From Moniliella sp. 'wahieum' (lineage: Eukaryota; Basidiomycota; Moniliellomycetes; Moniliellales; Moniliellaceae), in assembly GCA_003971905.1 (NCBI GenBank), contig RSEE01000007.1, positions 1,054,001 to 1,118,000 on the forward strand: a stretch of 64,000 nucleotides of DNA, read 5' to 3'. The stretch's first letter is position 1, and every line of letters begins with the position of its first letter. The notes below the pieces were generated by a model. That model was not told where the DNA came from. It made no database searches and saw only the letters and a program-made list of their open reading frames with translations. This document shows, piece after piece, positions 6,096 through 53,047 of this stretch. The translations under genes and the position numbers were made by a program.

Positions 6096-6123
6096 CATGT
6101 TACATGTTACATGTCACGCATCA
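6096..6123. repeat. Heptamer array CATGTTA/CATGTCA
   Basis: Units CATGTTA, CATGTTA, CATGTCA, CGCATCA in one 7-nt register. In rotated form the first units are TGT-T-ACA and TGT-C-ACA, each its own reverse complement except for the middle base. Confidence 0.85.
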
Positions 6124-6540
6124 CGCCGTTTTGCTGGGGTTTTTCCTTCGGGCGAGGAGACGCCGGATGAGTACTCAAACTGAGCATACACATGAGTGTT
6201 GCATGAATCGTTGGGGAGGTTTTGTATGGGACCGAATCGATAACAACAAGAACGAAGCAGTGATGAAGAGGCCAGTGACTAGTGAGATTACTGAGGGGTC
6301 CACAGAATGACACGGATTTATCAGTGCGACAATTGGTTGAACTTTGATATGCACGCTGATGCACTGATGCGTTTGACGCATCTATCGAGTTCCTATATAG
6401 ATCCGCATTGGCACGTTGACCGTAGAAAGCATGTTAAACGTGACCGAGAAGACGGTGACCAGGTTGACGACAACGTTAACCGTTCTCTCTGCTGGTTGAA
6501 CCGCTGCTGAGTTGAGAGCGACGCTTGAGAAGCTTGCATC

Positions 6541-6561
6541 TTCAAGCTTCAAGCTTCAAGA
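6541..6561. repeat. Heptamer array TTCAAGC (CTT-C-AAG)
   Basis: Three consecutive TTCAAGC-type units. The rotated unit is CTT-C-AAG, so unit junctions create AAGCTT. Further AAGCTTC words follow directly. Confidence 0.85.
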
Positions 6562-7407
6562 AGCTTCAACGACAACTGTGGTCCACCCAAACACCCATAC
6601 GTCCACACCTTGACAGTAGCAGATATAGAATCCCAGGAAAATCCCAACATGTGCTGCATGGGAGTGTGGGGCGAACAAAACACAGGGGATTTTGGTGCTT
6701 GGGGCAGCGATGAAAAGATCCGACGTACGGCATGGCGACGGAGGATGCCCGATGATCGATCAATGATCCATGCTCTAAGTAAAAATATCGCAAGGAGATA
6801 TATACTGCGTGCGGTCGCGCTGAGAGAAGCGTAGAGAGGAGGAAGGTGCTACTATAGGAGCGTGGATAGAGGTTGCCCTCGGATGCGACATGTAACCGTG
6901 CAGTACGTGTTCCTATACTCTCCCAATATATATGCGATCATCGATTACAAAAGAGCGTGTTTGGGCCATGTGGCTGCGTGACCCCCTACCATGGCGGTGC
7001 CAAGCATACCCCACACATGCCCACGTATGACGGACAGAGAGCGGCACACAGCAGAACATTCGTAGCGGCGAAAAGAGCGTAGTCCTGGAGGGAGAAACAG
7101 CAAGGAGAGGGCAGCAAGGGCTATCTCCCACAAAGGCTATCCCACCCGGATATGGTTATCGCGAGGTTCTCACTATAGGTCGGTTGTGGATCGGATCTCT
7201 GCCCCAACGGAAACGACACTCAAGTGGAGTTCCACTTTCGTATCTGTGGGAGAGAGGGCTATCCGTATCTCAATTACCTCCGCACTACGATCTGCCCTGT
7301 AATCCAGTCGATGCTACGTAGCCAGCGCCGCCATTCCGAGCTTCTTTGGCGCTTTTTTGACTTTGACGGGATCGATGATCCCGATGATCCCGATGTCGTG
7401 TGCATGT

Positions 7408-7435
7408 GATGGATGATGGATGATGGATGATGGAT
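7408..7435. repeat. Heptamer array (GATGGAT)x4
   Basis: Four perfect GATGGAT copies. It keeps the 7-nt period but is not palindromic, so period and palindromy are separable. Confidence 0.9.
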
Positions 7436-7582
7436 GACTGACCTGAGTGGATGGAGGTAGGGGCGGGGAAGGCCACTGCTGTCTATCGCCTGGCAAGCTT
7501 CAAGCTCCAAGGCCTGCCCCTGCCTAGCGGCAGCCACACAGTGTTGGCACGCTGTGGCCGAGACGAGACGGCTTAGTAAGCC

Positions 7583-7600
7583 GATGATCGATGATCGATT
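7583..7600. repeat. Heptamer array GATGATC (GAT-G-ATC)
   Basis: Two perfect copies plus a partial third. The unit is an odd palindrome GAT-G-ATC. Confidence 0.8.
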
Positions 7601-8290
7601 ACTGATTGCGGGTGCCAAGCGCGAAGAGCAGTGCTTTATCGCTTAAGCTTTCCGCTTCACGCTTCCAGCTTCCAGTTTAGCTTGCTGCGCATGCCACTCT
7701 GTTGCCCACACCATGTGCCCATGGGTGTGGCATTTCCATCCGACGGGTGGCGCTGGTTGGGGTGCATCATGCATCGTCATCAGCCACCCGTCACGTATCA
7801 CAGACATCATTCACTCCGTTAATCACGCATCCCATGTCACATGTCACACACCACGCGGCACACAAGGCTCGCGCTCAGGCTCAGGCCTCAGGCTGATCAG
7901 GCTCAGCCGCTCAGCTTAATGTCCCGCATGAACACGCACTGAGCCCTACTGCGCCTCGGGGGCAGCACAGCGCGGTCAATTGCGCCGAGTAACAAAATGG
8001 GAACGTTGGCAGCACCACACAGCAGTACCTAGTAAAGCGTAACGTTTACGCGTACGCAAAACGATAGTACGATTTGATTGGTTGAATATGGGCATTGATC
8101 CCCACAGGCAACAGCCAGCCACACCCTTCTCTCGTCCTTGTGGTGCTAGGGCACTGGCGCTATCTCGTTACGATCTTATCGATCGCCCCTCCCTTTGCCG
8201 CGCGTCTTCATGCCCTGGCCCCGACCCTCCCTCCCAGTCACGGGTCATCGTCCAATGACGCGCACGGCCCTGGCACTTCTCTCTACAGAC

Positions 8291-8297
8291 ATAAAAG
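8291..8297 (+). promoter_or_regulatory. TATA-like box upstream of the 8366 peptide
   Basis: ATAAAAG lies about 70 nt before the ATG at 8366 and is followed by a pyrimidine-rich leader (CTCTCTCCCTCTTACC), a layout typical of strongly expressed fungal genes. Confidence 0.4.
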
Positions 8298-8365
8298 CAG
8301 ACCAGCTGAGAACGTTCTCCACTTCTTTTTCCCCACCAACCTTCTATCTCTCTCTCCCTCTTACC

Positions 8366-8530
8366 ATGAAGTTCTCCTACGCCGCCATCTTCGCTGTCCT
8401 GGCCGCCGTCGCGGTCTCGGCTCGCTGCTCGTACGTGCTTTTCCTTCCTCTTTGGGCTGCAGGTTCTTCTTTTTAATTGGCTTGTGGGCAGTGGCTGACG
8501 TCTCCTTTCCCACGATCCAACAGCCGCTAG
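8366..8530 (+). CDS. Possible small secreted peptide, two exons
   Basis: From the ATG at 8366 the frame reads MKFSYAAIFAVLAAVAVSAR, a textbook signal peptide (Lys at position 2, hydrophobic core, small residues before the cleavage site). A good intron follows at 8431-8523: donor GTACGT, branch GGCTGACG, acceptor CAACAG. As printed, the second exon stops almost at once (Ser-Arg-stop, TAG at 8528). Because the window loses homopolymer bases widely, a missing base in exon 2 could hide a longer secreted protein, and two other frames stay open for 13 to about 90 codons. Signal peptide and intron are seen; the mature product is unknown. Confidence 0.4.
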
Positions 8531-8949
8531 GACGAGGGTGCCAGGGCGCGGCCGCAAGGCCTAAGTTCGCCAGTGCGAATTCGTCCTTGGCCATTGGAAC
8601 CGATGGTCGGGCGCCCCCTCTCTTCTTTTGCCTTGCAGTAAGCGCAGTGCATGGGTGTGTGCTTCCCTCCGTTGCCTGTTCAGCTGCTCTTGCTCCACAG
8701 CTCTCCGCTTTTAAACCGTTTAACACAAACGCTTGCATGTGTCCCTCGCATAGATCCTACTGCTGTATATGTACGGTATGGAAAAGCTTGTGATGGTGTG
8801 GAACTTCGACGTTGATTAATGATTAAGGAGGAGGCTACTGAGTCGAGTGTTGAGCCGCTCAGGCTGAGCTCCAAATGATGCATTAGTACGAGAAAGTCGC
8901 TCCCCTTCTGTTCTCTCTCCTTGTTCGCCGATATGCTGTAACATGTAAG

Positions 8950-8970
8950 GCGTCACGCGTCACGCGTCCC
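8950..8970. repeat. Heptamer array GCGTCAC (CGT-C-ACG)
   Basis: GCGTCAC twice, then GCGTCCC, in register. The rotated unit is CGT-C-ACG. Confidence 0.8.
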
Positions 8971-8990
8971 ACCTCAGGCGGGTCGTATAT

Positions 8991-9011
8991 ATCACGCATC
9001 ACGCATCACGC
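8991..9011. repeat. Heptamer array (ATCACGC)x3
   Basis: Three perfect copies of ATCACGC. The period is 7 but the unit is not an odd palindrome. Confidence 0.85.
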
Positions 9012-9403
9012 GACCCTGCAGACTTTTTAAGTCAAAAACACGTAACAATCCAAGCCCTGCGAGACTCGGCGACTTGCAGCTCCAACAGAATTTCCCGAAA
9101 CGGGTGCAGGCGGTGCGGGGAAGCGTCCATCCCAGACACGAGAACCTGCGCTGAGATCGTGCGACCCAGGGCAGGGGGCGCTGCTGTTTCTGTGGCTGTT
9201 TCTTGGCCCGAGCGCCAGGGGCTCGAAAGAGAATCTCGAATGGTTAATGCATAATGGTCGAGTCTGAGTCTGGTTCCACGGCTTCGATGGACGAGGCCTT
9301 GTCGGGAAAGGCCGCGCAGCGTACCGTGGACCATGTACCGCCCACTCCTAACACGTAACGCGCGCATACTGCTACCGATGGACAGACGCATTGACGATCG
9401 GGA

Positions 9404-9424
9404 TTACGCGTTACGCGTTACGCG
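9404..9424. repeat. Heptamer array (TTACGCG)x3 (CGT-T-ACG)
   Basis: Three perfect copies. The rotated unit is CGT-T-ACG, and junctions create ACGCGT. Confidence 0.9.
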
Positions 9425-9428
9425 TAAC

Positions 9429-9449
9429 GATCATCGATCACCGATCACC
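9429..9449. repeat. Heptamer array GATCATC/GATCACC
   Basis: GATCATC followed by GATCACC twice, in one 7-nt register. The first unit is GAT-C-ATC. Confidence 0.85.
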
Positions 9450-9704
9450 TACTATCGACCACCCATCTGCATCATCGAACATCGATCAATCAATGAATCT
9501 TCGGCGGGCCGACCTGGGTTTACGCGTTTACGACGTTCATGTTGGGGTTGGGGTCAACCGATCAAACGTTAATCCTTAAACGTAAGCTTTAAGGCCTAAG
9601 GCTACCTGTTACATGTTATGCGTTACGTCTGGGTACGATGATCAAATGTCCCACAGCCTCCCACCGCGCGAAAATGAAGCTTGAATCTGCCCCTCAGGGC
9701 TGGG

Positions 9705-9718
9705 CCTCAGGCCTCAGG
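9705..9718. repeat. Tandem CCTCAGG (CCT-C-AGG)
   Basis: Two abutting CCTCAGG heptamers, with a third copy at 9692-9698. Each is CCT-C-AGG. Confidence 0.8.
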
Positions 9719-9826
9719 GCGTCACTTGCAGTCTGTCTGTTCGGAGGTGGGACGCGCGGGTGGCGGATGCGTCGATAAGGCCACACCGGCCCACACCTCC
9801 TCGGCCCCTCTCAGATCTAGCCCTGG

Positions 9827-9847
9827 TCAAGCTTCAAGCTTCAAGTG
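9827..9847. repeat. Heptamer array TCAAGCT (CTT-C-AAG)
   Basis: TCAAGCT twice, then TCAAGTG, in register. The rotated unit is CTT-C-AAG, the same as at 6541 and near 28365. Confidence 0.85.
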
Positions 9848-10441
9848 CCTACTAGTCAGACTAGTGACTGGTGCAGTCACCGGTCGCCGCTCTGCTCACC
9901 AGTCCAGCGACACTCGCTTGGTCGGACCTGCCACATATGTTAGCCACTTGGTGACTGTATCTTGTTCGTGTGTGGCGTTGCACGGCACATGTCACACATT
10001 GTGACATCATGCATCACAGCCATCCCGACTCATTGTAGTCAGAATCACGGCATCGTCTTGCCTGGAAGCATGAGTGTTGGTTGCCGGCTGCCGGGAGGGA
10101 GAGAGGATGGGCGGTGTGTGGTGTGATGGGTGATGGCATGCGACCGGTGACCCAACCCCCGATTGTCGGGAGGAGCTAGCCACGAGCAACCCGCGACTAG
10201 CACTAGTCCCTAGCCAGTCCCACGGCTGGCGCTGGCATGAATTTGGCACACTCGTCATGGGTCACGCTCGCAGCGCTCACTCGTCGCTCGAGGCTCAGCG
10301 CCAGTGGCCCCCGCGGCGTGGCGGGCTGCTGGGACGGCGTGCACGGGGTCCTGCATGCTCCGGGCGCCAGCCACCCACACCCACCACTTCCCTGCCTGTT
10401 GCGCCCCTCGGCCTCTCTTTCTCACCAGCGTCCCGGCCAGC

Positions 10442-13400
10442 ATGGACGCCATCCCGCCCGACGATCCGTCCCCCTTCGCATTCACGTCCCACCGCCCAGC
10501 CCGCCGTCGGATGTGTCCGACGCAGACACCGAGCCCGAGCGCCCACGCTTCCGCCCGGCACCAGCCGTCGCCCGCCGCCGCCGCCGCCTCGGCCCCGTTC
10601 TTGTTTGGCTCCGTTGGGGGCGACGGCCATGTCCTTCACAGCAATCCTCTCCAACGCCCCAGCACGAGCCGCGGCACTCCGTCCACGCCGACCGCTGCGC
10701 CTGCTGGTGCGTCATCCCGCGCCTTCCTCACCTCGGCTCGGCCCCTGACCAGCACTGGCCCGCCAGCATCCCCATCCGCGCCTACCTCAGTCCTTGCGGC
10801 TGCATCACCACTCGCTTCTCCATCTGCAGTGCACCTGACCTCTCCCGCCCTTTGACGTCCACCTCCCGCCCCAAGACCGTGTTCGCGACCAACCTGGCCT
10901 CCGAGCGGAGGTCTGCTCACCCCCCCCGTCTCTTCCGAGGGTTTGCAGCCCATTGTCTCGCTCAACAAGAATGGTCGCTCTACCGCCGAAGAGGAAATGC
11001 GTGCGCCGCATGATCCGCGAAGAGTACGAGGAGGATTCAGAGGAAGAGGATCTGACCGGTGTCTTTGCTTTTATGCGTCCCATCACACCCTTGGAACCAA
11101 TCCAGGCGGGGGGCTCCTTTGAGATTCCACGCGACTCCCCCTCACCTCCCCCCCTGCTCTGCCACCAGCTTCCAGTGATCCTCCCAACGACGTGCAGGAC
11201 ACTGCTACCTTCCCTACCAACCCCAACCCCAACCTCAACCAATACGAGACACAAACGACCCACCTCCATCTCAACCACCTTCGATCCCCACCAGTCCACC
11301 ATTCCAACGCTCCCCTCTGGTGCCCCACACCCATCCTACTACTACGACCCTGGACCTACCGACCTCCCCATCCCTCTCACGATACTGATCGCTCCAAGCA
11401 ACAGCCCTCCTCTTCCGGCTCGAACGGCCTGCCTACCGCGTCGAACAGCCACGACTTGGCCCCAGAAATCAGGGTGGATGCTTCGTTCCCATATAATCCT
11501 GCCGCAGCCCAATCCAAGGGAGCTGGGCACACACATGTTTTTGGCCCTGTGGCAAATGAGTCCCTGGCTTCTCTGCAGGCGTCGGGGAAAGAGGGAAAGA
11601 CATGTACCCATGGCGACGCTCGGAGCTGGGCCCCTGCCCACCCTGCGCAAGACGATGGATGAAGCCGAGGACCGACCAAGCGGATCCAGTGGTCCCCGTC
11701 CCGCCGATTTTGTGTACGAGACGCGCCAGGTTCGAAAGAGAAAACCCCAGATGGTGGTTGTAGAGAACACGCCCGGCGGGGACAGCCCGTACATTGAGGT
11801 CCGATGCAGCGTTCAGAGCGACGACGATACGACCGAGGAGTGCAACACGCTCCGTGTGTGGGTGATTGCCTTTGTCGTTCTCACAGTCACGCTTGCTGCC
11901 AACTGTTATTACCTTCCGTTCCCCTTCGCCCACCTTTACGGTTCCGCTCATTGTTCTCTTTACCTGGCCGTTGGGACGGGCGTGGGCACGCTACATGCCC
12001 AACGTGGCCATTCCACTGCCCGCTCTGCTTTTCGGACAAGGGGCGCGACTTGCTATTAACCCTTACCCTGGACCATGGACGATGAAGGAGCACGCCCTCA
12101 TTTCCCAGCTGGGGATGGTGACCATCAACAGCTACATTACCTACCCCATCTACACGCTCACCGCCATTGACAACCGGTTTCTTTGGGACCACAACATTAA
12201 GGGTGGGGCGTTCGCCTATGGCTTGCTCATCGCCTGGTCGGCTGCTCTGTTTTTGGAATCGGGATGGCCGGCGTCACACGCAGTTTCCTGGTGCAAGCGG
12301 CCAGTACGATTTGGCCGCACAACCTTTCGATCTCGCTCTTGATTAACATTCTTCATGCCGAGGAGGACCCGCCGCCGGGGGAGTTGGGCCGGGTGCAGTA
12401 CTTCCAAGTTGTTCTGCTGGGCATGTTTTGCTGGCAATGGATTCCCACCTACTTGTTCACTGGTCTGAGCATGTTCAACTTCATCTGTTGGGCTGCACCC
12501 AATTCCGTCGTGGCCAATCACCTCTTTGGATACCGCAACGGCCTGAGCCTCTTGCCCCTCACGTTTGACTGGTCCCAGGTCCACATTCTGTTCGCCACTG
12601 ATCCCCCGTGGTGGACGGGACTCAATCTCTTAATCACCTATGGGTTCTTTTGGGTCTTCCTCGGTACCGTGCTCTTGTTTACCAATGTAGGTCTCCCCTC
12701 CGCGCCCCTCCACCTTTCTCCACATGCTAACCTTTTTGACTTACAGAGCATGGACATGGGCTACCTTCCTATGTTGGGGTCGGGGCTGTACAACAAATTT
12801 GGTCAGTCGTACGACGTTCTTCGCGTGTTAAACCACCCGCATGGCGTACTCGATGAAGCCAACTACGAGGCCTATTCGCCGCTGTACGTTTCGTACGGGT
12901 ACTACATGATGTACTACGCTGGTTTGGCCATGCCCATGGCGCTTCTCGTTCACTTTGCCTTGCACCACCACTCGTCTGTGGTCCATACCATCAAATTTGG
13001 CAAACCTGAAAAGGACGATATTCACGCCAAGCTCATGAGCCATTACCCCCAGGTGCCTACCTGGGTCTACCTCTTACTTTTCCCCTCCTTTGCTGTGGCA
13101 GTGGGGGTGGTACGGGGGCTGGAGACGGGAATGCCAATCTACAGTGTGCTGGTTGCATTTGGCATTGTTCTGTCTTTTTCCTTCCTGCTGGCGTTGTCTT
13201 TGCCCAGACCAACTTGTTCATGACGTTCACCAATACACTGTGCGAGCTGGTGGCAGGCTACCTCCATCCAGGCTCTGCAACAGTCAACATTATGTTCAAG
13301 ACGATTGCCATCACCTCGAACAATGTTGGCATTTGTTTGCTGCGGGATGAAGATGGGGCACTACCTCAAGGTACCTCCTCGGCTCACCTTTGTTAGCCAG

Positions 13401-14001
13401 TTGCTCGCCATTCTCTGGGCGTTTGCCGTGCAGTTTGCCGTCAAAGCCTTCTTTCATGCCACGGTCCACGATCTGTGCAGCCCCAAACAGATCAACGGTA
13501 TGGTCTGCCCCGGCTCGCAGACCACGTACGCCAGCTCGGTCGCATGGGGGACGATTGGACCACAGCGCATGTTTGGGCATCGTGGGTTGTACGGTTCGCT
13601 GTACTGGAGCATGCTGTTGGTGCGTTGCTCCCGTTGCCCATTTGGCTGCTCAATAAGCGCTACAAGATGGCGCAGTTTGTCTCGGCTCCCATCTTGCTGT
13701 TGGGTGCGACCTTTATCCCTTCCTACAACCCCATCTCGGTCGTGGTCTACATCTTGCCCAACTTTATCACCCAGTGGTACGTCCGTCGTCGCTCGTTCAA
13801 GTTTTGGGATCGGTACCAGTACATCACGTCGGCCGCGCTGGATGCAGGTGCACGTTGGCCAGCTTGGCCATCTTCTTTTGTCTCCAGTTGCCCAAGCACG
13901 GCACCATCCAGCTCAATTGGGCCGGGAACGATGTGTACAAGAACAACCGCGATCATAAAGGCACTTCTTGGCTGCACGTTCCCGCACAAGGCTTCTCTTG
14001 A
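10442..14001 (+). CDS. OPT-family oligopeptide transporter (many frame breaks, long N-terminus)
   Basis: Proton-coupled oligopeptide transporter of the OPT family, a plasma-membrane protein with about 12-16 helices that imports small peptides. Family marks in order: SPYIEVRCSVQSDDD and CNTLRVW before helix 1; PLPALLFGQGARLAINPYPG; the FNIKEH-like block GPWTMKEHALISQLG; AGVTRSFLVQ; WPHNLSISLLINILHAEE; the OPT core (FTNTLCELVAGYLHPGSA); MGHYLKVPPR; and the C-terminus ending at TGA 13999-14001. An in-frame 60-nt intron (12687-12746; branch GCTAAC) is seen. Single missing bases fall near 11900 (two), 12270, 13200, 13345, 13620 and 13845. Upstream of about 11650 the frames are disordered and Pro/Ser-rich. 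10442 is the earliest plausible ATG, but a later start such as 11611 is possible. Confidence 0.85.
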
Positions 14002-14921
14002 TCGTTTCTTTGTTCCATTTTGCACGGCTTGATCATCCCACCTTCATCCCACCTCTCCCGTCACCCTCTCACTCTCTCTCTCTCGCCTTTCACCATCATT
14101 CCATTTCTGTTTTTCCTCACGTTCCTTTTGTGGCTGGCAGCGGCAGCTGCTGCGCTACCCAACACGCATACGCAACCGCATTTTGTGCATTTTTTTTTCA
14201 CTCATTGTTACCACAACTTTCTCATCACTGACCCTAACGTACCGTGAGCAATCCCATTGACCACCTGGTGCTTTGCATGTCGATGGAGTAGTAGCTGGGA
14301 AATCCGCCTATGGGACGTTTTTTCTGAAAGCATAGCCCAGAGCATAGCCACGTCTAATACTCGGTGCCTTTGAAATCTGGGCACGGTGTGTACATGATGG
14401 CGGAGAAGGCGAGGCGGCCGCGTGGCACCCGGCAGAGTGCCAGCGGGGTGTGATGAGGCGGGGTAAACCCACGCTGCTCCGACGCATGAGGTATGATGTG
14501 GCGGTGATGAGGGCGGTGCACATCACACTCGCCGTCTGCCGACATTTTTTCCTGGCTGGGCCTGCGATCTTCTGTGCGCCGGCGACCTCCACACGCCCAG
14601 CACGCCCAGTCCCCGCCTGGCTTTGCTGGCCCGTCGTCTGCTGGCGTGTCTGCTGTGGTTGTGCGCTCTCCGTGCTGCTGCTGGGTGAGTGTGGCTGTCG
14701 TGCTGTCCATGCCCCCCGCCCCGACCCGCACCCCCGCTCGCTTGTCCGCCGCGTGCCGAGCCTGAGCCTGCTCGGCCCTCTGTTGCCGTGCCCGTTGCTG
14801 CTGCCCGCTGCCGCTGCCCGCTTGCCCTTGCCGCTTGCCCCTTGCCGCTTGCCCCTTGCTCCTTGCCCTTGCTGCTGCCCCTGGCCTCTGTCGCTTGCCT
14901 CGCTGCGCGCGTCTGCCTGCC
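14002..14921. other. Spacer between OPT gene and C2H2 gene
   Basis: No protein recognised. Long open frames on both strands (for example minus 14308-15123) are GC-driven shadows. A CT-rich patch lies near 14067-14090 and a 7-nt C-rich array at 14821-14869, just before the next ATG. Confidence 0.5.
14821..14869. repeat. C-rich heptamer array CTTGCCN/TTGCCGC
   Basis: Seven units in one register: CTTGCCC, TTGCCGC, TTGCCCC, TTGCCGC, TTGCCCC, TTGCTCC, TTGCCCT. It lies in the presumed leader of the downstream C2H2 gene. The period is 7 with no palindrome. Confidence 0.85.
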
Positions 14922-16241
14922 ATGTCCGCCCACTCGCCTCCTCCGAAGCTCGCCGCCCCCGCCGCCCCGCCCGCTGCGGCGGCCCCGAGCCCCCAAACCC
15001 TCCGACCCGCTGCCTCCTTCCTCGCCCCTGCCGCCCCCCCCCCCCCGCCGTCGCTGGCCATCGGCACCAACACCAGCCATGCCCTCGACGCTCCCGCAGC
15101 CGCCGTGGCCGCACCAGCGCCAACCCCAGCCCCAGCGCCAGCCGATGGCTCCGCTCGACTCACTCCTCCTCTCCAACCCTTCTACTCCCCAGTGCGAGTC
15201 CTTTTCCCCCCGGCCAGCCCCAGTGCGGCGCTGAGCCTCTCGGAGGAGGGCCCGCTGGGCGCATCAGGCGCTTCGCCTGCCTTCCCCCACTTCAAAGGCT
15301 TTGAATCCCCCACTTTTCCCTCGGCCACCACGGCCAGGTGCAGCCGTCGCAGTTGCAGCAGCACCTCGCTCCTGTTGCTCCCCATCCGGCCGACCTGCTG
15401 CTTGCGTCCGAGCCAGATGCCCAGCCCTCCCTCACGGCATCCACTTCCGGTCCGTTCTTCCAGGACATGGCCTCCATGGTTCAGCCCCTGCCTTCCACCA
15501 TGCCTGGCGCTACATCTCAACCTGCGCTGTCGTCCCTGCCGGGCCCGATCCCTTCCGCTCCCGCCCAATGCAGCTGAGGGACCCGTGCACATGGCCCTGT
15601 CGAGCACAGCATGCACTTCCCCAGCTCCATCTCCCATCTCTTCTTTCAGCATGCCCAGCTGTGGCCCGCGCCATCCGCCTACTTTTACCAGCCGCGGGCG
15701 GGACCTGTGACAGCCATGCCAGCTGGCTCGCCCGATCGCTTGAACTTCTTTTCCACTACATCAAGCAGCATCTCAACCTCGCCTGCCAGTGTCATGACGG
15801 CGAGCACGAGTGCTAGCGCTTTGCATACGCCAGACAACATGGCTGGCTCGCCAATCCAGCGGCGGTCTCGTCGATCGCTCGGTGCTACGGTCGATGCACG
15901 CATGCCGGCATCCGTGGACGCATGCGGGCCAAGGGCACGTTTTCCTGCTGTTTCTGTGGCATCAATGTCAGCCGTGTGGACAGCCTCACCCGCACATCAA
16001 GCGCAAACATCCCCTTGAAGTTCAGCAAGCGGGCGGGAATCTAGGACTGGGCCCCTTGGGTCTCCCGCGCTTTTCGCCGCCGCGGCCAAGCCCCGCCCCG
16101 TCGACGAGTGCCAGTGTGGCCTCTTCCCCGGGGGAAAGTATGTCGGGCTCGGGCAAGCGAATCCTCTGCCAACTCTGTGGTCTGTCTCTTTCGCGTACCG
16201 ACAGTTTGGCGCGCCACATCAAGAAACAGCACCCCCATTAA
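14922..16241 (+). CDS. C2H2 zinc-finger protein with two C-terminal fingers (frame breaks)
   Basis: Putative nuclear transcription factor. The ATG at 14922 starts MSAHSPPPKLAAP and a long disordered Ala/Pro/Ser region (about residues 1-330). Two classical fingers lie at the C-terminus. The first is CCFCGINVSRVDSLTR-HIKRKH (around 15945-16012, needing one restored C). The second is CQLCGLSLSRTDSLARHIKK ending in QH (around 16168-16236). Both are C-x2-C-x12-H-x4-H and share SR-DSL-RHIK, so they look like an internal duplication. The TAA is at 16239-16241. Frame changes occur near 15330, 15575, 15655, 15930 and 15995. The fingers identify the class only; no orthologue was recognised. Confidence 0.8.
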
Positions 16242-16726
16242 CCTGTGCCCCCATCCCTTGCTCCCGCCCTGTGTAGCATGTTCTGGTGCGCTCATCCCCT
16301 GCTCCTTTGTCATTCACTTCCTATTGGTGCGCCCCCCCTCCTCCCCCCCCTATTCAACGATCCCATCGCATCTTTTGTTTTCACCCCGACTTGATTTAGC
16401 GCACCATACAATCACGACTCTCTTTGCATGCTCCATGGCCTTGTACCTCTCCTCAGCTTGCGCTTGCCTCTCGTATACCATCCCACCATTGCCCCCTGAG
16501 GCCTGAGCTCAGATAATACCCAGATTGAAAATCGGCCCTACTGTCCAGTTGCCCCAACAGCTCGAAGAATCCCTATCCATCGCACCTCTGACTAAGTGCA
16601 CTGAGACAGCATAGGGAGAGAGGCGACGGGACCTACTCGAATCCGATGCCTGTAAGTCAACTAGATCATACAATGAGCTCTCTGAGCAAGGTTTGAGTAC
16701 GGTCCCAAACGTAGAGAGAGGTCCCA
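16242..16726. other. Convergent 3' spacer between C2H2 gene and eIF3h
   Basis: 485 nt without a recognisable gene, holding the 3' untranslated regions of two convergent genes. Pyrimidine-rich around 16320-16400. Confidence 0.5.
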
Positions 16727-19145: not shown

Positions 19146-19166
19146 GTTGAACGTTGAACGTTGAGC
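19146..19166. repeat. Heptamer array GTTGAAC (GTT-G-AAC)
   Basis: GTTGAAC twice, then GTTGAGC, in register. Unit junctions create AACGTT. Confidence 0.88.
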
Positions 19167-19587: not shown

Positions 19588-19607
19588 TCATCATCATCAT
19601 CATCATC
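19588..19607. repeat. TCA trinucleotide microsatellite
   Basis: About six TCA copies in a row in non-coding sequence, a rare non-heptamer tandem in the deserts. Confidence 0.8.
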
Positions 19608-38326: not shown

Positions 38327-38331
38327 AAAAA
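38327..38331 (-). terminator. RNA polymerase III terminator of tRNA-Ala
   Basis: Five T on the minus strand, nine bases after the tRNA 3' end, with a second T5 at 38319-38323. Confidence 0.7.
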
Positions 38332-38340
38332 GAACCGATT

Positions 38341-43411: not shown

Positions 43412-43971
43412 CTGGCGCCATCTTCCTCCCATGCGGTTCAGTCCGTCCGTTCACACATCTAATATCCATCTAGGTTTTATGCATTCCTGCGTCGTATATA
43501 TAGCAATTCCCCCTCATTTTGGCTGCAGAGAGGGGGGGTTGAAGTTGAAATGAGCGGGTGGCACATCTTCTTCTCGCTGCTTGATTGGAGTGAGACTCAG
43601 ATGTAGCTAGTTGGTGGGATCGGGGTGGTTGGCTGAAGGTGCGGGGGAGGGAAGGGATGAGGATGTCAAAAAAGGCCATGATAACGCCGATCATGTCGAT
43701 AATGTGCGTCCTTTTGTTTGGCTCGGGGTTAATCGGTTAATCGCTACCGGCAAAACGTGCGCCACGACGTTGCAGCCAGCACGCCATCACATTGTCGTCA
43801 GCAAGTTCTCTCGCCCTCCACATAATGGTATCAAGCTAGTACTAACACAGGCAAGGTAACTACTATCCTCAGTACCCGCGACTCGTTGCCCCCATCTCTC
43901 GCTTCGCTACCATCATTACCGTCCCCACCTCCATTCGACCGCTTCGTGCCCAGCACCTCAATCCAGCGCCC
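43412..43971. other. Spacer between RRP6 and MsrB
   Basis: No gene recognised; RRP6 3' end and MsrB promoter. Confidence 0.5.
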
Positions 43972-44409
43972 ATGTCCCAGTTTCCCAAAGGCAAAAGCGA
44001 GAGCGAGTGGCGTGCGCAGTTGAGCCCGGCCCAGTTCCGCATCTTACGTGACAAAGGCACGGAGCGTCCGGGAACGGGCGCGTACGATGACTTTTACCAC
44101 GAGGGCATCTACACGTGTGCAGGGTGCCACACTCCACTGTACACGTCTACAACCAAGTTTGACGCTGGCTGTGGCTGGCCCGCGTTTTTTGACGCCCTTC
44201 CCGGCACGATTGACCGGCATGTGGACACGAGCTTGAACCGGCACCGAATTGAGATTACTTGTCGCAACTGTGGTGGTCATTTGGGCCATGTGTTTCAAGG
44301 CGAGGGGTTTCCTACTCCTACCGACCAACGCCATTGCGTCAACTCGATCGCTTTGAACTTCTCCCCCGCCGAGTCGGATGCGCTCCACGAAGCGGTGGCC
44401 AAGGCCTAG
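43972..44409 (+). CDS. msrB: Peptide-methionine (R)-S-oxide reductase (MsrB), intact
   Basis: Reduces methionine-R-sulfoxide in proteins after oxidative damage. The 145-residue frame from the ATG at 43972 (CCCATGT) to TAG is unbroken. Visible family marks: EWRAQLSPAQFRILRDKGTE, zinc CxxC pairs in YTCAGCHTPLY and ITCRNCGGHLGHVF, the block FDAGCGWPAFFDAL, and the catalytic cysteine in RHCVNSIALNF. No targeting presequence is evident, so it is probably cytosolic. It is one of the few genes here without a frame break, which makes it a useful control for sequence quality. There is no intron. Confidence 0.97.
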   Translation: MSQFPKGKSESEWRAQLSPAQFRILRDKGTERPGTGAYDDFYHEGIYTCAGCHTPLYTSTTKFDAGCGWPAFFDALPGTIDRHVDTSLNRHRIEITCRNCGGHLGHVFQGEGFPTPTDQRHCVNSIALNFSPAESDALHEAVAKA

Positions 44410-45523
44410 CCACACACCTAATACTTGGTTTCCACCATCATGCGTTTCTTACACTGGAGTGTGCCCGCGGGGTACGCATGTGTCTGCGCCTCTTTCCTCT
44501 GCATTATTCTGCCTTCGAATCATCGCTATGGTGATAGGCCAGGATGTGGGCATTCATCCGACTTCTGGCTCCGTACCCACCCCATCCACAATCGATGCCA
44601 TCAGTACGGCTTGAGGCAACGAGTCGGCTTGTATTCGGCCACCATTTCTGTATCCTTTTCACATTGTTCTAGCTCGTAGAACAGCCAATTCGTCCCGCTT
44701 CTTATTGGTTCATTGGAACTTGTTGAGCCCTTCCAGATCGGGCTTCTTCTGTTCTTGTTTTGCGCTCCTAGAGGGCCGCCCCCCCCCCACGATTTCTTGT
44801 TTGATGACCTTGTTCTGTCTTGCTGGCCGGCCTCCCTTCTGCTCGCGCTATGCACCCCCGGGGGAAGGAGGGGAGGGAAGCCCGATCCGAGCTTGGGCTA
44901 TAAAGAGAGTGGCGAGAACGGGAAGCGGAAGCGTACCACAATCTCCATGTATATAATAGCCTCTCAACGCACATGTATGCATCTATTCTCAGGCCTACTC
45001 CTCAGGCCGCAATCGCGTAGTATCCACTTGTTGGTTACCACGACGGCAGCCAGGCGCTGGGCATGTAACAGCGTGACAGTCCTTCGTTGCACCACCTGCG
45101 CTGTTCTGCATATATGCCTCGGCTTGGTGTCGATAACCCGTTCTGCGTCGCAAGCATCCACAGGCCTATTATTGTCGGCAGACATATGAAAGCTTGAGCT
45201 AGTAGCACCGTAGTGCCGTTTCCCAGGGGGGATTCTGGGATGGTACGGCGGGAATCAGGCATGCAGCCGCTGGGGTCGCATGTATAGTACCGAATGTGGC
45301 CATTTGCCGAGTCGGGACACTGGGATCCGAGAGCCACGGCGGGCGTGCGAGCGGCCGACCAGCCACGGGCAGGGACATCCTCAATCAACCCCGTTCCCCC
45401 GCTCGGGTATCCTTTACGTGTTCTGGTCCTGCTCCCACCTCCCGCCCCCCCCCGACCACCGACATCTGTCCACCGACATCTGCTGCGGCCATCGCCCCGT
45501 GCCGACGAGCGTTGTTGAGCAAC
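44410..45523. other. Spacer between MsrB and the 45.5-kb gene
   Basis: No gene recognised. Overlapping frames on both strands between 45030 and 45520 have no domain. C-rich leader sequence precedes 45524. Confidence 0.5.
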
Positions 45524-46828
45524 ATGAGCCAGCGACCAGGCCACCGCAACCAGAGCCAGGATCCGAGCCAGGCATCGTCGCCCTCGCGGCGCAGCCGATG
45601 CCGGTCCGGGTCGCCGCAGAAGCGCACCCGCCAACAATGGTTCCACCCGCAGCCAGGCCCCCTCTTCTCCCCCGACCCCTTGCCCGGGATCCCCCTCGCC
45701 CCCTCCGCCCCCACACGCCGCCCGCCCCGCCCGCCCCGCCCCATGGCACGGCAGCACCAGCTTTCGGCGCCGCTGTGGCGCTCGACGTGCCCCTCCACTC
45801 TTCTCCCACCATGCCCATGCTGGGAGAAAAGTCGAACCGCAGCCCGGCCAAGCCAGTATGCCCGCCCATCCACTTCGACATGGAGCCTGCCCGTCTGCCA
45901 GATGAACAGGGGACTCCACTCGTCCCCCCCGCCGGCGCTGACGTTTCCAACACAACACAATTCTCTTCCCCCCACAGTCGCCTGAACCGATCGAGTGCGC
46001 GCCCGCGCCCAGCGACTGGCTCCAAGGAGAGTACATGCCATCCACGCAGCTACCGCGGGAAAAATGGGACGTACCTGAGCTTGAGGCTTTTCCGCACGGC
46101 TACAAGCTCGTATCTTTCCTCGACACCATCTCTTTCTGTCCCCCCTCGCAAGCTGGCTTTCCTTTGGGACACAGTACCTATGGCAGTGCCGATCTCGGTC
46201 TCGCTCCCCACTTGGACCAGGACACGTCGCCCCCCCCCAAAGCGATTGAGCGAGAACGATACTTGGGCGGTGCACCCGAGAGCATGTTCCCCTGGGACCT
46301 GTCCTTGCCAGAATTATCATTGACGGAAGAAAGCTTGACGGACGAGGAGGATGAAGCGTTCCAACTGACCCAGCTGCTCGGTTCTGACCCTTCCTCCTTC
46401 TTGCCCTTCGTCCGGCGCCTGAGCACCCTCTGTCCAAGCCCGATCCCCAACTCCGTCCCCGTCCCAACCCCAATGCCAACCCCAACCCCAATCCCGATCC
46501 CAATCCTAAGCTTCATTCAAGAGCGTCCACCGAACCATACCGCACCACAGCCCGTCGACCTGGGGCCACGAAATCCAGCCTGCTGCGCCCGAGCGGTGGG
46601 ACCGTCGGTCGACCTTAAGCACTCGCCCCCTCCCTGGTCGTTCCCCCTCTTCAGTCGCCACCAACAACAAGGCTCTTCTGCCTCGTGCTGTGCCTGGCCG
46701 CCGCCCGTGCACTTGATCATGATCGGGGTACAGCGCAGTCCCACCCGGGAGGTCAGGCGGGCACGAGGGCGCGGCAGGAGGATGGCGAGGTGTACCTTGA
46801 GCTCAACCCTGCTGAAGCCTTCTTCTAA
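45524..46828 (+). CDS. Uncharacterised Pro-rich protein with conserved-looking C-terminus (frame breaks)
   Basis: I do not recognise this protein. The ATG at 45524 gives MSQRPGHRNQSQDPSQASSP, then an Arg/Ser/Pro-rich segment. Protein-like pieces follow in changing frames: SNRSPAKPVCPPIHFDMEPA, DWLQGEYMPSTQLPREKWDV-PELEAF, PWDLSLPELSLTEESLTDEE (acidic), PNPNANPNPNPDPNP (Pro-Asn repeat), and the end QEDGEVYLELNPAEAFF with TAA at 46826-46828. Breaks lie near 45760, 45965, 46420 and 46640. The acidic and Pro-rich composition suits a nuclear regulatory or adaptor protein, but no function is assigned. It is convergent with ADA2, and both are followed by long pyrimidine tracts. Confidence 0.55.
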
Positions 46829-46848
46829 GATTGGATCCGGCGGAGTTG

Positions 46849-46961
46849 TCCTCCTTCTCCTCCTCTCCTTCTCCTTCTCCTTCTCCTCTCTTCTCCTTTC
46901 CTTTCCTTCTCCTTCTCTTCTCCTTTCTCTCTTCTCTCTTCTCCTTCCTTCTCCTCCTTTC
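46849..46961 (+). repeat. 113-nt uninterrupted polypyrimidine tract
   Basis: Only C and T, mostly CTTCTC/CCTT words, starting 20 nt after the stop of the 45.5-kb gene on its sense strand. It could form triplex DNA or act in 3'-end formation. Confidence 0.92.
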
Positions 46962-47119
46962 ATATACCATTTCCTACTGTGACTGTTTTTCTGAGACTGT
47001 TTTTCACACTCACGTTCCCCTACAATCCGACCTGTTTCGGCAATGGCATGGTTGCCTCCCGGAGCTGACACTAGAGTACATCGGTTGATTTTGGGGGCAA
47101 TTGTACAGCCAGAACGCCC

Positions 47120-47198
47120 AAGGAGAGGAAAAAGGGGGAAAAAGGGGGGGGGGGAAGGGAAGGGGGAAGGGGGAAGGGAAGGGGAAGGGGGAAAGAAA
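47120..47198 (-). repeat. 79-nt polypyrimidine tract on the minus strand
   Basis: The plus strand is all purine (GGGGAA words), so the ADA2 sense strand has a C/T tract 35 nt after its stop. It mirrors the tract at 46849-46961. Confidence 0.9.
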
Positions 47199-47233
47199 CA
47201 AGGGAAACAAGGGGAAAACGCGACCGAGGACAA

Positions 47234-49438
47234 CTATCTCCCGTTCCGTACGTTGGACGGGGCCAAGCCCGGGGCCAACTGGGGCGCAGCGAGATGGGGA
47301 GACCCCACGGCGGCACGATGAGACTGCGACGAGGAACGTTCGGGCGAAGGCACGAGACCCTGTTGCTCCAGCACGTCGTACACCCGTGCCAACCGGGTCG
47401 GGTCGAGCTTGAACATGGCCCGAACATCTTTGCGTTCTAATTTGCCGTCGCGCCGGCGCTGTTCGACGAGGATGGACCGCTTGACAGTCAGGTACGTGGC
47501 AGGTCGAATGCGTTGCTCCGAACAAAGCTTTTGCTCTACTTCCGATAAGAGACCCAAGTTGGGATCGGCACTCAAGTCCAACGGACGCGAAATCGTTCGG
47601 CCGCCCGGTTTGCGTATCGGACCGGATGTTGCCAGCGGGTCCACCGCCGTAGCCGAGGCGGTAAGAGAAACAGAGGACTCCCTACCACGTTGGGCGGGAG
47701 ATCCCTTACGGTTAGCTCCCGATCCGGTCGGACCTCCAGGGGAACCCATGGCGGCGACATGAGCCAAATGCGGAAGGGCAGCCAAGCCACCTTCAGCAAT
47801 TGCTGCCGCACGCTTCTCCCGCTCACTCAGCTCGTGTTCGTATTGTACGCCATCCGCCAACGACGTAATCCCGGCCCGACGCCACCGTTGCAGCTGCGCA
47901 GCTTGGCGGCGCAGCGCATCCTCGTAGCACAAGCCATTGTAAAAGTCTTCGAAATCCTGGCCAGTCTGCAATTGGGAGAAAGTGACGAATGCGATGGAGA
48001 AGGTCGCGTTCTTCCTTGGGCCGTCTCCGCTCGGCGGCCAAGTTGCGACGATAATCAATCAAGTTGCGCTCAAAAATGAACCGCTTGCGCCGCTCCCGTC
48101 GATCCAGCCGTTCGCCATACATGTCCAAAATCGTCAACTTGAGCAACAGATCCGCATCGTCCTCGTCCCAGTCTCCTGGTTTTTCTTCGTCCTCGCCGCC
48201 CGCTGAGGCGCTAGCTTCGGCAGCCGAGGGTGTCGCCACCGACTCGTCTCCGGCCAATTGGGGGACCGCCGACGCAGGTTGCGTTTCGACCTGCGTTTCA
48301 GCCTCAACTTGTTGTGTCTCGTCGCCCAACTCGTTCGCTTCAGGATCGGCCTCGCCATCGGGGCCAGGGAGGGTCTCTTCCATCTCCTGGTCCTCTGCCT
48401 CTCCATTCTCCTCAGGCTCGGGTGCTGTAGGTTGGGCAGAATCCTCCTCTGCCCATTGGGAACGGCGGAAGCATCGCCATCGGGAGCATCCTCCTCAGAG
48501 GTACCCTTGTTTCCCTTGGCAGCTCGTTCCCCGGCGTTGGTACGGGTCGCCGCATTGCCTCGTGCCGAGGGGGGCATACGCGCCTTGCCCTGCACGTTTG
48601 CTGCCCTTCTCCCAGCGCTTCGGAGACCGTCTTGATTTGGTCGCCGCCAAAGCGGTACACCCGACCAAATTCCATATCCTTGTTGAGGTTTTCCGCATCT
48701 TGTTCGTACTCGGTTTCAAACTCGAGACGCCCAGCCATAAAGCCTGCGATCTCGTGGTGAGAGGTAGGGGCAGAAACGAGGGGTTGGGGCCGACTTGAGT
48801 TGGGACGCATGTTGGCTAACGAGAACCTGTTGTGTCTTGCGCAGCGTATCGATCCGCGCGCGCTTGCGTCGCTGAAACTCATCGGCGAGACGGGCGGGAT
48901 GGAAGTGCATGTTGGGACCCATGATCGGCGGTTGTTCCCATGGCGCCTCGTCGGGGGGCAAGGGGCTGCTGCGCTGAGCCGCCCTCTGTCGAGTCAGACG
49001 TTCTTCCTCCTCTTGCGCCCGAATCTCGCCTTCGGGCGTACCATCTTGACCCTCAAGGTAGACCGAGACGTAGTGCCGCTCCACATCTTCGGCAGTGCGG
49101 TTTACCAATATGGTCGGCAATGTCGGCCCAGTTGCCCAGGCCAAAAATGCGACACCCATCAATCAACAACAACTCTTCGTCCGCGCCCCATTGGTCGGTA
49201 AAGATGGGGTAGGCATTGCGCTCAATCACGCGGTACGCGTGCCACGCCTTGTGCGACCCCACTTCGGCGCCGAGCAGAAACAGGTGCCGCACAGGTCAAA
49301 TTCGCTGCACCCACCAGCACACTGCACGCGCACAGTAAGTGTAATGTCCGCACCACACACGTCGCAGTGGTACTTGGTCCCGGGCTCATGGTCCGCCTGC
49401 TCAGTGGCAACCTTGCTCTTCCGGTGCGTGACCGTCAT
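47234..49438 (-). CDS. ADA2: SAGA adaptor Ada2 (ZZ-SANT-SWIRM; many frame breaks)
   Basis: Adaptor that stimulates Gcn5 in the SAGA/ADA histone acetyltransferase complexes. The ATG at 49438 starts [20 protein letters not shown]. The ZZ zinc finger is [20 protein letters not shown] and [12 protein letters not shown]. The SANT domain shows [40 protein letters not shown] and [17 protein letters not shown]. The Ada2 core includes [40 protein letters not shown] and [15 protein letters not shown]. The C-terminal SWIRM is [20 protein letters not shown] with [10 protein letters not shown]. At least seven single-base losses occur (near 49290, 49150, 48850, 48700, 48430 and two near 47970). The stop is at 47234. 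Repaired length of about 735 residues is long but within range. No intron was found. Confidence 0.94.
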
Positions 49439-51655
49439 GGGCGGGGGGGGAGGGGGGGGAGCGCGTCGCAGTGGGTCGCGTGGCGGGGGAAGAGGCCGTG
49501 GTCGCCGTCGGGATGGAGGGGGGGGAGGGGAGGAGGTGGTGGGGCAGGGGCGAGGCAGGGGCGGGGCGGCGGTGGCGAGGCAGCAGGCGTGGCAGGCGGC
49601 AAGAAACGCGCTGCGCTCGGCTGGCTCGACTCGTCTCTCGCGCGAAGGCTGACGCCCAAGCGGAAGCTGAAGCAGCCCGAAGCCTGGAGCGGACAGCAGC
49701 GCACAGCCGCCGCCCGCTCACCGGTCGTCACCGCTCACCGCTCAGCCCAGGGAACGTGTTCCGCCCCGCGCCATTCCGCCCCTGGCTGGCGGGGAGGCAG
49801 TGAGCAGCGCAGGGCGTGACGGCAGCCGCCCAGCCGCCAGCCAGGTAGATAGTACGCGTGCATTCCAATCCGGCCTCGCTTACGCGCTTACTAGTTACTA
49901 GCTTTACTAGTTACTGGCCATCGGAGGCCACACCGGTCCTGATGATGTCGATGATGCACGAGGTGGCGCAGGACGAATGAACCATCTCGTCTGTGGCGGA
50001 TGCCATCGATGCAGATACACTTCCAATGGAGGCTCTGGTTACGTGAGCCCCGCCAGGGACGCGCATCATTGGACAAGGCATGGCCCTTCTCTCTTGCCTC
50101 TTGTGCGCCACAAGGGGTGCGATGGGCATTGGTAACGTTCCATTCTATATGTGCGTCGGCGCGGGGCCCACACGAGCAAACAAGCTCTTCCCGTGGTGAC
50201 CATCAAAAGGAGAATCAGCCACAGGAGGGAAAACGAATATTCGAGTGCTTACGCGGGCGCTTCCGTTCAGTTAATTGTTGTATAGATCCTTATGGGACCC
50301 GGCCACTGAGCTCTTCAAATTGTACGGCATCTTCACGTATAGCAGAGGCGGCTGCAATAACAGTGTGGCGCAAAGTTGCGTGTATGCACCGGCTTGGACG
50401 GTAGTAACGTGGCTGAAGCCTTCGGGGCTCAGCACCCAGGAAGGAGGAAGTGGCAGCGGGGCATCAACAGTACGAGCCTGAGAGCTGGAGCGAGAGCTGG
50501 GCTGGGACTGCGGGCGGCGTGGCTAGAACTAGGGGAGCCCATTGCACTCTGCGGTACTAGACCATTATAGCTTTCAGCGTGGCCCCACGAGTGCACACAC
50601 GAGTTGGGTGGATGAGAAGCTGAGAGCGAAAGACGGGAGCTGGTTGAGGAGCGGAGGAGCAGCTACAAAGAGGAGGAGAAGTTGCCTGAACTGAATCAAC
50701 TGGGGGGAAATGGGCAGGTGTAGGGACAGAACAGGCGAGGATGGACGAAGAAGGGGGAGGGGGTGGAGACGCCAATGGACCGTGGGGGGAAACCCACGAA
50801 CGATTGCTTGCTCACAGGGACAAAAACAAGGAACAACACAATAGAGGAAGAAGAACGGGGGACGGGGGTGTGAAAAAAAGGGGAAACGATTGTCGTGCGG
50901 GAATGTAGAAAGACAAGGTAAACGACACCCGGGGGCGCAACTATAAACAACTTGGTAACCTCGCTGTGGCTACCGACTTCCTTGACCAGAAGGCGACGAT
51001 TTCCGCACGGAAAAACGTGCGACTGGTGTTCTCGCGTTGGTGTTTACGCCGGGCCTCGCGAGCTCGGATCCGAACCGATCCTCACGCGCTTTACGGATGG
51101 GCACAAGTATCTCATTGGTAATCTTCTACTCCGAGGAGGAGACGGTATAACTGTTGGTCATCTTACCAACCTGGGGTCGGGGTTAGGAAAAGGCGAAGGG
51201 AGCGCATAGGCTCCGCCAGGATGATAGCCAGCCCATATTCGCCCGTGCTAGACATGTGACAACAGTCAGGCGCTGAGATAGCGGATCGAGTCGATGGGTA
51301 AGGCGCAACATGCAAAAAGACGCTGTATTAACTGACGGGTAAACCGACCTACAACGCGTGCATATCGGTGGAACGTGGACATGAAGACAGATCGGTGCTT
51401 ACTAGTTACTCTCACCGTCGGGGCTCAGGCGCTCAGGCGCTAAGGCGAGGGAGACCAGAATCGAAACTACTACCATGGCCAAGGGAAGTAGCAATCGTTC
51501 GGGGGGAAAAGCCACAGCAGAGAGGACATGGCGCGAAGCGGAAGAACAGGGACAGGGCGACACGCTGTCAGCACAAAGATTCTGGTAAGGGGGGCGAGAT
51601 GAGCCGACTATGGTCATCCTTACGAGCTACTACTTACTAGTCACGAGTGCAGCTA

Positions 51656-51669
51656 GCATGTGGCATGTG
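51656..51669. repeat. Tandem GCATGTG
   Basis: Two perfect GCATGTG copies followed by GCAGG; period 7. Confidence 0.8.
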
Positions 51670-51861
51670 GCAGGCCATACATCATGTGCCTGTCACGCAT
51701 CATGCATGCCATGTGACATGTGAGCGCGAAGGAGTGGCCCGTCGGCTGAGCTTCTCGGCCTCGCTGCACCACGCGGGTATCACCCATCCTGTATCATGCA
51801 CCAGCCATCCATGTCTCGCCCGACGCGAGGAGCTCGCGCGCCGATCGTCACGCGTCAGGTC

Positions 51862-51882
51862 TGTGACCTGTGACATGTGACA
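51862..51882. repeat. Heptamer array TGTGACC/TGTGACA (TGT-G-ACA)
   Basis: TGTGACC, TGTGACA, TGTGACA in register. The same palindrome as TGT-C-ACA read from the other strand. Confidence 0.88.
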
Positions 51883-52090
51883 TGCTTCGTTGAACACCCT
51901 GAGGCTGAGCCGCCAACAAAAGTGCCTCTGGCTTCCGCACGCTCCAGATTCCACTTCCACAGCGCAGCAGATGACGCCCACCCTGGCCCAGCACCGAAGG
52001 GGCCGCCATCGGGTGCGATGCGACCGCACCAGGGCACCCAATCCATTTGGCAACGCGTCCGCACGTCAACGTTCAACATCCGATGGACTG

Positions 52091-52139
52091 TCCCATGTCC
52101 CATGTCACATGTCGCATCATGCATCATGCATCAGCATCA
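52091..52139. repeat. Seven-unit heptamer array with drifting sequence
   Basis: TCCCATG, TCCCATG, TCACATG, TCGCATC, ATGCATC, ATGCATC, AGCATCA. The 7-nt phase holds for 49 nt while the unit changes stepwise. Confidence 0.92.
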
Positions 52140-52661
52140 GCCGCGAGGCTCCGATGGAGGCCGCATGGGTGTTGAGCTCAAGGTTGCGCGTTGCGCTCAG
52201 CGGCTCAGCCCCGAGGGCTATGTTTCGGCGCAGAGGAACTGAGTACTGAGCCTGAGCGGTATAACCGGGACCAGGTCGTATAGAGTGGAGTTGGGCCGGC
52301 GTTCAACGTTTTCTCAGATCTCACCCGAAACCCTCACACAAAACCCTCAGGCCTCACTCAAAACCCCGTGGGCCATCGGCATTACCGCGCGGCGCGCGCG
52401 CAATAACCTTGCGCAACACGGTAGGCAATAGCTCCATGGAGCCAATCAAGCAGCCCAAGCAAGCCCCAAAACCAGAAGAGGGTTAATTATTACTTCTCAC
52501 CATTACATGAATTACATGGTACTTTTGTGTTACTCTAGGTGTCAACAGGTCAGCGTGTCAACGCTCAGCTTGTGTGGCGGCCTTTTCCGTTGACGCGTTC
52601 GGCTGAGTACCAGCTAATTCATGTTCAGGCGCTCAGGTCCTGAGCCTGAGGCCTGGAGGCC

Positions 52662-52680
52662 TGATGCATGATGCATGATG
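52662..52680. repeat. Heptamer array TGATGCA (CAT-G-ATG class)
   Basis: Two full TGATGCA units and a partial third. It is the complement of the TCATGCA class seen at 23759. Confidence 0.85.
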
Positions 52681-53033
52681 ATTCATTGCTGGAGGCCGGA
52701 GGCTTTTTAAGCAAGGGCGCCTATACCCGACGCGCTGACGACCAGTACCTACGCGATGCCTGCTAATGTTGAATTTGGTTGGCTCAGTGCACGGTGATTT
52801 TGTTCGAGGGTGACCGGTTACTAGGGTTACTGACTAGTGACCGGGAAGACGATGTGTCGAAATGAACACCAACGGGGAGCCAGCGGGTTCTTCAATAACG
52901 TTCTCAAAACGTGCGGTTGAAAAGCACATCCAACCTGGTCCAGGTACTCGACGTACTCAACCGCTTCTTCTCTGTTTCAATGTTCAAGCTCTGGCGATGT
53001 GTGCCAGGCTCCATGGGATGGGCGGATAGGACT

Positions 53034-53047
53034 AGTTACTAGTTACT
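53034..53047. repeat. Tandem AGTTACT (AGT-T-ACT)
   Basis: Two abutting AGTTACT odd palindromes; junction creates ACTAGT. Confidence 0.88.

Follow-up and report, generated by a model that had tools for sequence, protein, structure and literature searches.

The window analyzed here, a 64,000-nucleotide stretch of the genome of Moniliella sp. 'wahieum' (contig RSEE01000007.1, positions 1,054,001 to 1,118,000; loci are given in window coordinates unless another contig or locus is named), carries heptamer repeats that center on the triplet TNA, and we consider it probable that these heptamers are the scars of a break-and-rejoin reaction at a 7-base pair (bp) target, NNTNANN. If PQ and XY denote the two-base flanks of the TNA core, and Q'P' and Y'X' their reverse complements, the target is PQ-TNA-XY and the scar takes one of two forms. 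In the right type the site is present as PQ-TNA-XYY'X'-TNA-XY and the palindrome copies the right flank; in the left type it is present as PQ-TNA-Q'P'PQ-TNA-XY and the palindrome copies the left flank. Either way seven bases are added, 14 bp standing in place of 7, with the TNA core and one flank doubled, and the junction XY|PQ of a plain duplication is replaced by XY|Y'X' or Q'P'|PQ.

Statistics were taken over 264 kilobases (kb), made up of the window and 20 pieces of 10 kb, one from each of 20 contigs at a common coordinate, in an assembly of 69.5 megabases in 223 contigs. Coding DNA was called by a crude codon-usage method whose training set came down to two open reading frames (ORFs); the calls broadly match Pfam-supported genes, with exon edges, introns, and the 23% coding figure approximate. 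In this set the commonest length of isolated runs is 12 bases, and there are two mirror forms of it, TNAXY-Y'X'-TNAXY (31) and Y'X'TNA-XY-Y'X'TNA (29), a structure absent from the description in an earlier, sequence-only reading of the window. On both strands together, non-coding DNA has 235 copies of the 12-mer, where 20 third-order Markov simulations averaged 0.65. Called coding DNA has a single copy, and the near absence of the heptamer rule from such DNA is confirmed. Genome-wide, the form with XY = AG, one of the 16 forms of the signature, amounts to 11,845 copies (5,984 + 5,861), a count that takes in repeated array units and leaves the two middle bases free to differ, compared with 18 (7 + 11) for the pattern read backwards.

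The same structure is seen when four bases separate two TNA words of equal N in non-coding DNA, these four being palindromic in 115 of 200 TCA pairs, 98 of 175 TGA pairs, 24 of 43 TTA pairs, and 19 of 38 TAA pairs, compared with 1.5–7.5% for ten same-word ANT, CNG, and GNC controls. All 16 palindromic tetramers are found between TNA cores. Spacers of 2, 6, 8, and 10 bases between TNA words gave no palindrome excess like that at 4, palindromic 6-base spacers being too few to separate from chance. Palindromes of other lengths likewise showed no similar signal, and at the neighboring duplication length the palindromic form was counted 41 times, little above its controls (26 and 28). The mixed pair TGA..TCA is also high (11 of 29 palindromic), and the words CAT, GAT, and ATG gave 28, 20, and 19 in the spacer test, which we read as probable overlaps. 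On one strand the 7-spaced form was counted 245 times, against 137 and 104 for the reversed and complemented controls. Cores other than TNA account for 194 of 476 hits, on both strands, of the equal 12-mer form; among the first 14 inspected per class many are TNA arrays read a second way, for example CATCATGCATCA, and the other-core residue that remains is not separated from a general excess of 7-spaced repeats.

Longer repeats follow the same rule. Perfect period-7 runs of at least 16 bp number 90; 56 of these are odd palindromes and 54 of the 56 center on TNA, which confirms both the TNA-centered heptamer rule and the strand symmetry observed in the sequence-only reading. Among the periods from 4 to 15, none but 7 comes near this palindrome share in the 264 kb, the next best being period 9 with 2 of 22; a period-9 relative that is palindromic and TNA-centered as well, TAGTAACTA, lies at 23350–23371. 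In the window itself an odd-palindrome rotation exists for 23 of the 37 such period-7 runs, with 21 centered on TNA and the other two being TGGTCCA at 38068 and TGCCGCA at 53233. The 54 TNA arrays all lie in non-coding DNA. Identical palindromic hexamers paired 7 bases apart fall into A....T (75), T....A (0), C....G (3), and G....C (3). C or G occupies the middle of 50 of the 56 palindromic runs, mostly because TCA and TGA are abundant; that C or G is needed there was rejected, as TTA and TAA cores are palindromic at a rate equal to that of TCA and TGA. Hits per 1000 sites are 8.8 and 9.3 for TTA and TAA, about half the 15.9 and 17.6 of the other cores. An ordinary heptamer microsatellite, a perfect 101-bp GACACAG array that breaks the TNA rule, is found in the same genome (L020:5257–5357).

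The sequence-only reading had single copies of these words peppering the intergenic deserts, and it proposed counting NNTNANN against Markov expectation and control centers. In unmasked non-coding DNA single TNA heptamers do stand at 1.45–1.67 of expectation (controls 0.84–1.08), but outside period-7 runs of at least 12 bp the figure is 1.00–1.21, against 0.84–1.10 for the three control centers, and in masked coding DNA it is 0.80–0.94. Single-heptamer enrichment was therefore rejected as the chief signal; the strong single-copy signal is the 12-base structure.

The bases of the palindrome can be read from the surrounding DNA. Among 202 loci, 157 are wholly consistent with their outer flanks, whereas shuffling the flanks 1000 times gave 26 on average and never more than 41; 159 of the loci carry one added unit only. 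Single palindromic sites (n = 130) match the right flank only in 47 cases, the left only in 37, both in 15, and neither in 31; plain 7-bp duplications without a palindrome number at most 11. An array formed by repeated hits on one TNA core from either flank must read left types, then right types, with N constant, and in the 12 mixed arrays this order is exact in 10 and reversed in none. Two-unit arrays with distinguishable units comprise 8 left-left, 6 right-right, and 6 left-right, where independent hits predict, by hand calculation, about one-quarter left-right. Again by hand calculation, second units are present at about four times the number predicted if all TNA sites were hit equally often, so either sites differ in rate or slippage adds units. 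In non-coding DNA the scar rate per 1000 TNAXY sites runs from 33 for AG down to 1.6 for TA, an approximately 20-fold range, and scar density across the sampled loci is 0 to 2.5 per kb. Flank dinucleotides with a high rate are AG, CA, TG, and CT, those with a low rate TA, AA, and AT, and G+C content is no simple predictor.

The assembly holds both haplotypes as separate contigs, and a DNA search placed a second copy of one part of the window, 89% identical, on contig C55. We aligned 40 kb of C55 (G000:C55:330001-360000 and 370001-380000), colinear with window 5.4–33.5 and 43.5–53.4 kb; the colinear stretch is 5383–53437, with 94–97% identity over aligned bases. Differences of 7n bases are located at arrays, and at six clean sites one haplotype has a full scar and the other the bare 7-mer. 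Three are of the left type (6166, 19094, and 23798) and three of the right type (9518, 9552, and 24389). A seventh scar difference, at 8937, adjoins an array that differs too. An automatic count of unfilled sites includes misplacements inside arrays, and reliance is placed on sites checked by eye; positions 21727, 27480, and 52240, which differ by more than one clean 7-bp step, are uncounted. The window holds 74 TNA-palindrome loci, 12 of them with two or more units. The principal loci are as follows.

6096..53760: span with most of the 74 loci, denser at about 6.0–10.0, 21.7–28.5, and 49.9–53.8 kb.
6166..6172: unfilled 7-mer GA-TGA-GT; left-type scar in the other haplotype.
6540..6560: two-unit TCA/AGCT array (CTTCAAG), the same in both haplotypes.
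8937..8950: single left-type scar TG-TAA-CATG-TAA-GG; the other haplotype reads TGTAAGG. The adjoining array, CGTCACG, differs by one unit between haplotypes.
9518..9524: unfilled 7-mer GT-TTA-CG; right-type scar in the other haplotype.
9552..9558: unfilled 7-mer GG-TCA-AC; right-type scar plus one extra G in the other haplotype.
19094..19100: unfilled 7-mer AA-TGA-TG; left-type scar in the other haplotype; one base just beyond the site also differs.
23729..23777: largest array of the window, on a TCA core with TG on both sides, four left units (CATG) and then two right units (TGCA), in the order L,L,L,L,R,R; perfect runs at 23728–23761 and 23759–23780; shorter in the other haplotype.
23798..23804: unfilled 7-mer AA-TCA-TC; left-type scar in the other haplotype.
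24389..24402: single right-type scar AG-TCA-GATC-TCA-GA; the other haplotype reads AGTCAGA, a 7-bp presence/absence difference.
28485..28512: three-unit TGA/ACGT array (GTTGAAC), the same in both haplotypes.
40698..40718: mixed array on one TGA core, a left unit ATAT and then a right unit ACGT.
51846..51859: one TCA with a left-type CGCG in the window and a right-type GATC in the other haplotype; not clean.

At 51846, the sequences CGCG and GATC on one TCA would be the two outcomes expected for a single site; this is not a clean case because the neighboring stretch also differs.

A reaction of the following kind would write such scars. The two strands would be cut seven bases apart at the target, and each end would close into a hairpin that is then opened two bases from the tip (yielding P nucleotides), leaving 4-base self-complementary overhangs. 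Joining of the ends would produce a 4-base mismatch, to be settled in favor of either the left or the right sequence. A hairpin opened at three bases would yield the same letters as one opened at two, since the core's T and A are complementary. Each scar would leave two TNA cores, so later events at one place could add 7-bp units and build arrays, with slippage probably adding units once several exist. Judged by its geometry, the scar appears to match the hairpin-ended, P-nucleotide excision footprints of hAT-like or V(D)J-like reactions, here on NNTNANN. As in a hAT-like excision footprint, the target-site duplication is kept at the scar, with core and one flank repeated 7 bases apart and six unfilled alleles, and the junction is a flank-derived palindrome. 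The 8-bp duplication of hAT elements, which is also the length of the Ds target duplication, is not seen; the spacing here is 7. The cutting enzyme is most likely transposase-like: it may belong to a cut-and-paste element that is being excised and has escaped detection, or it may be a transposase or nuclease in its own right (domesticated). Tentatively, and with less confidence than we place in the break-and-rejoin origin itself, one may suppose an enzyme without an element that keeps cutting non-coding DNA at NNTNANN throughout the genome, the cuts staggered by seven bases and the ends closed as hairpins. The heptamers would then be a microsatellite class written not by slippage but by a standing, possibly programmed, cut-and-rejoin activity, legible in sequence alone.

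V(D)J coding joints likewise carry short palindromes that derive from the flanks when hairpins are opened; an offset of two bases is typical of Artemis. Those joints are made in vertebrate lymphocytes, are programmed at signal sequences, and are usually trimmed with added bases. One exact form is written here many thousands of times in one genome, whereas P-nucleotide footprints are otherwise known singly, from transposon excision and V(D)J joints. If the proposed origin is true, the scars would be a record, readable from sequence alone, of a break-repair reaction, would give a class of microsatellites a non-slippage origin, and would offer a concrete lead to a cutting enzyme with a TNA-centered target. 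Our literature search brought up no paper that we recognized as describing the TNA-heptamer scar pattern.

The closest known systems share parts of this pattern. In hAT excision footprints P-nucleotide palindromes are explained by hairpin-closed ends, and the Ac/Ds footprints of plants, budding yeast, and Candida albicans resemble the scars here in keeping the duplication and in having flank-derived palindromic junctions (PMC5873905). Unlike Ac/Ds, the scars here have a 7-bp TNA-centered target, very many loci, and arrays, and no element was found in 304 kb. Kat1, a domesticated hAT transposase of Kluyveromyces lactis, makes hairpin-capped double-strand breaks as a non-mobile enzyme; its site of action is the mating-type locus and it requires inverted repeats, whereas the apparent target here is only NNTNANN, genome-wide (PMC4763223). 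A search for a Kat1-like gene, limited to the hAT dimer profile, gave no match. Galileo, a P-superfamily transposon of Drosophila, has a 7-bp target duplication with the odd-palindromic consensus GTAGTAC, but its center is A-G-T rather than TNA and a real element is present; the part of that account available to us describes no P-nucleotide scars or arrays (PMC2775673). In Fusarium mitochondrial DNA, palindromic (A)n(T)n microsatellites vary between close relatives, but these are mononucleotide runs, described with no 7-bp or TNA rule (PMC7218506).

Several results weigh against a break-and-rejoin origin. A search of 304 kb, about 0.4% of the genome, turned up no convincing element that combines a matching duplication with inverted ends, and nothing matched the hAT dimer, Plavaka, MULE, DDE_4, or KDZ profile, the controls having worked only for MULE and DDE_4. 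At two TNA-centered duplications outside arrays, in locus L024 near 3950 and in a transporter gene at window position 12081, no more than 9 of 12 inverted end bases match. The haplotype differences are presence or absence of 7 bases, which may reflect either gain or loss. Of the 202 loci, 45 break the flank rule, and TNA-N4-TNA pairs with differing N have a palindromic N4 in 44 of 237. The scars take one dominant even form, whereas Ds footprints fall into 28 types among 128, with deletions and with palindromes centered on one complemented base (PMC5873905). The haplotypes also differ by four or five units at the arrays near 9671 and 51700, which favors some slippage or larger steps.

Replication slippage on self-complementary 7-bp units, stabilized by hairpins and able to make and maintain arrays with no break enzyme, would account for these multi-unit differences and, as for an ordinary heptanucleotide microsatellite, for allele differences in whole units (7n bp at arrays); the roughly fourfold excess of second units and the ordinary array in L020 speak for it too. 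As the origin of the scars we nevertheless consider it improbable, since most loci record one event, with a repeat of just 5 bp, and the palindrome is set by the outer flank. Copying of neighboring units alone does not describe the 159 loci with one unit or the 10 mixed arrays that follow their flanks; left-then-right arrays on one core are impossible by unit copying, and neither the need for TNA nor the confinement to period 7 is explained. Template switching or snap-back synthesis, whether in replication or in end joining, is somewhat easier to credit, though still unlikely: with the two flank bases copied backwards and a return at the T of TNA, the core and flank would be made again and the product would be equal, and synthesis-based models have also been proposed for transposon footprints. 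However, CNG, GNC, and ANT cores offer an equal one-base return point and yet stay near chance, and the fixed two-base step and 7-base period need an extra rule. The sequence-only reading had offered a hairpin- or template-switch-driven generator as an alternative, which comes close to the break-and-rejoin reaction with palindromic junctions that we favor, and its interpretation as a whole is partly supported.

A mobile element with a TNA target duplication that leaves two bases of each end, as in a mariner-like footprint, would account for TNA repeats around a 4-base palindrome and for the constant N, but is very improbable given that all 16 tetramers are present and that the four bases are copied from the site's own outer flank (157 of 202) rather than from a fixed end. 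Scarcely credible, finally, is the likeness to sites of dimeric factors drawn in the sequence-only reading, which pointed to the bZIP-like protein of the window. A bZIP-like domain is encoded at 38640–39950 (bZIP_1 27.5 bits against a cut-off of 27.6; bZIP_Maf 22.0 against 22.0), and the location of all TNA arrays in non-coding DNA would suit binding sites. Such a factor would fix the outer bases and make them common to its sites, whereas here they are free (16 of 16 tetramers), pair with each other, and copy the local flank, which amounts to no binding preference. ANT centers, which are AP-1-like, are not enriched, and neither the flank rule nor haplotype differences of exactly 7 bases would be explained.

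As to an element or enzyme behind the break-and-rejoin reaction, the 148 integrase-domain matches in the profile search indicate that such a search does detect mobile elements here. Searching for elements through a duplication combined with inverted ends gave 35 candidates with 7-bp duplications; among the best 25, some are array words and the rest look like chance. In about 38 kb of aligned haplotypes, which contain the six clean scar differences, no large insertion with a matching duplication was seen, and this leans mildly toward an enzyme acting without an element. Insertions in one haplotype only are found at window 22098–22520 (423 bp), L039 344–798 (455 bp), L041 about 6366–7847 (1482 bp), and L042 6656–6892 (237 bp), the last resembling window 4322–4550 at 72%; by eye, none of these four has a 7-bp NNTNANN duplication. 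L009:8731-10000 is the end of a repeat with more than 20 other copies at 87–99% identity; one of its frames looks integrase- and chromodomain-like by eye, and it is probably a gypsy-type retrotransposon. Among the genes of the window, one ORF has a Zn2Cys6-like cysteine motif, read by eye, and another encodes the ribosomal protein eS26, whose best PDB match is 9axt, a fission-yeast ribosome.

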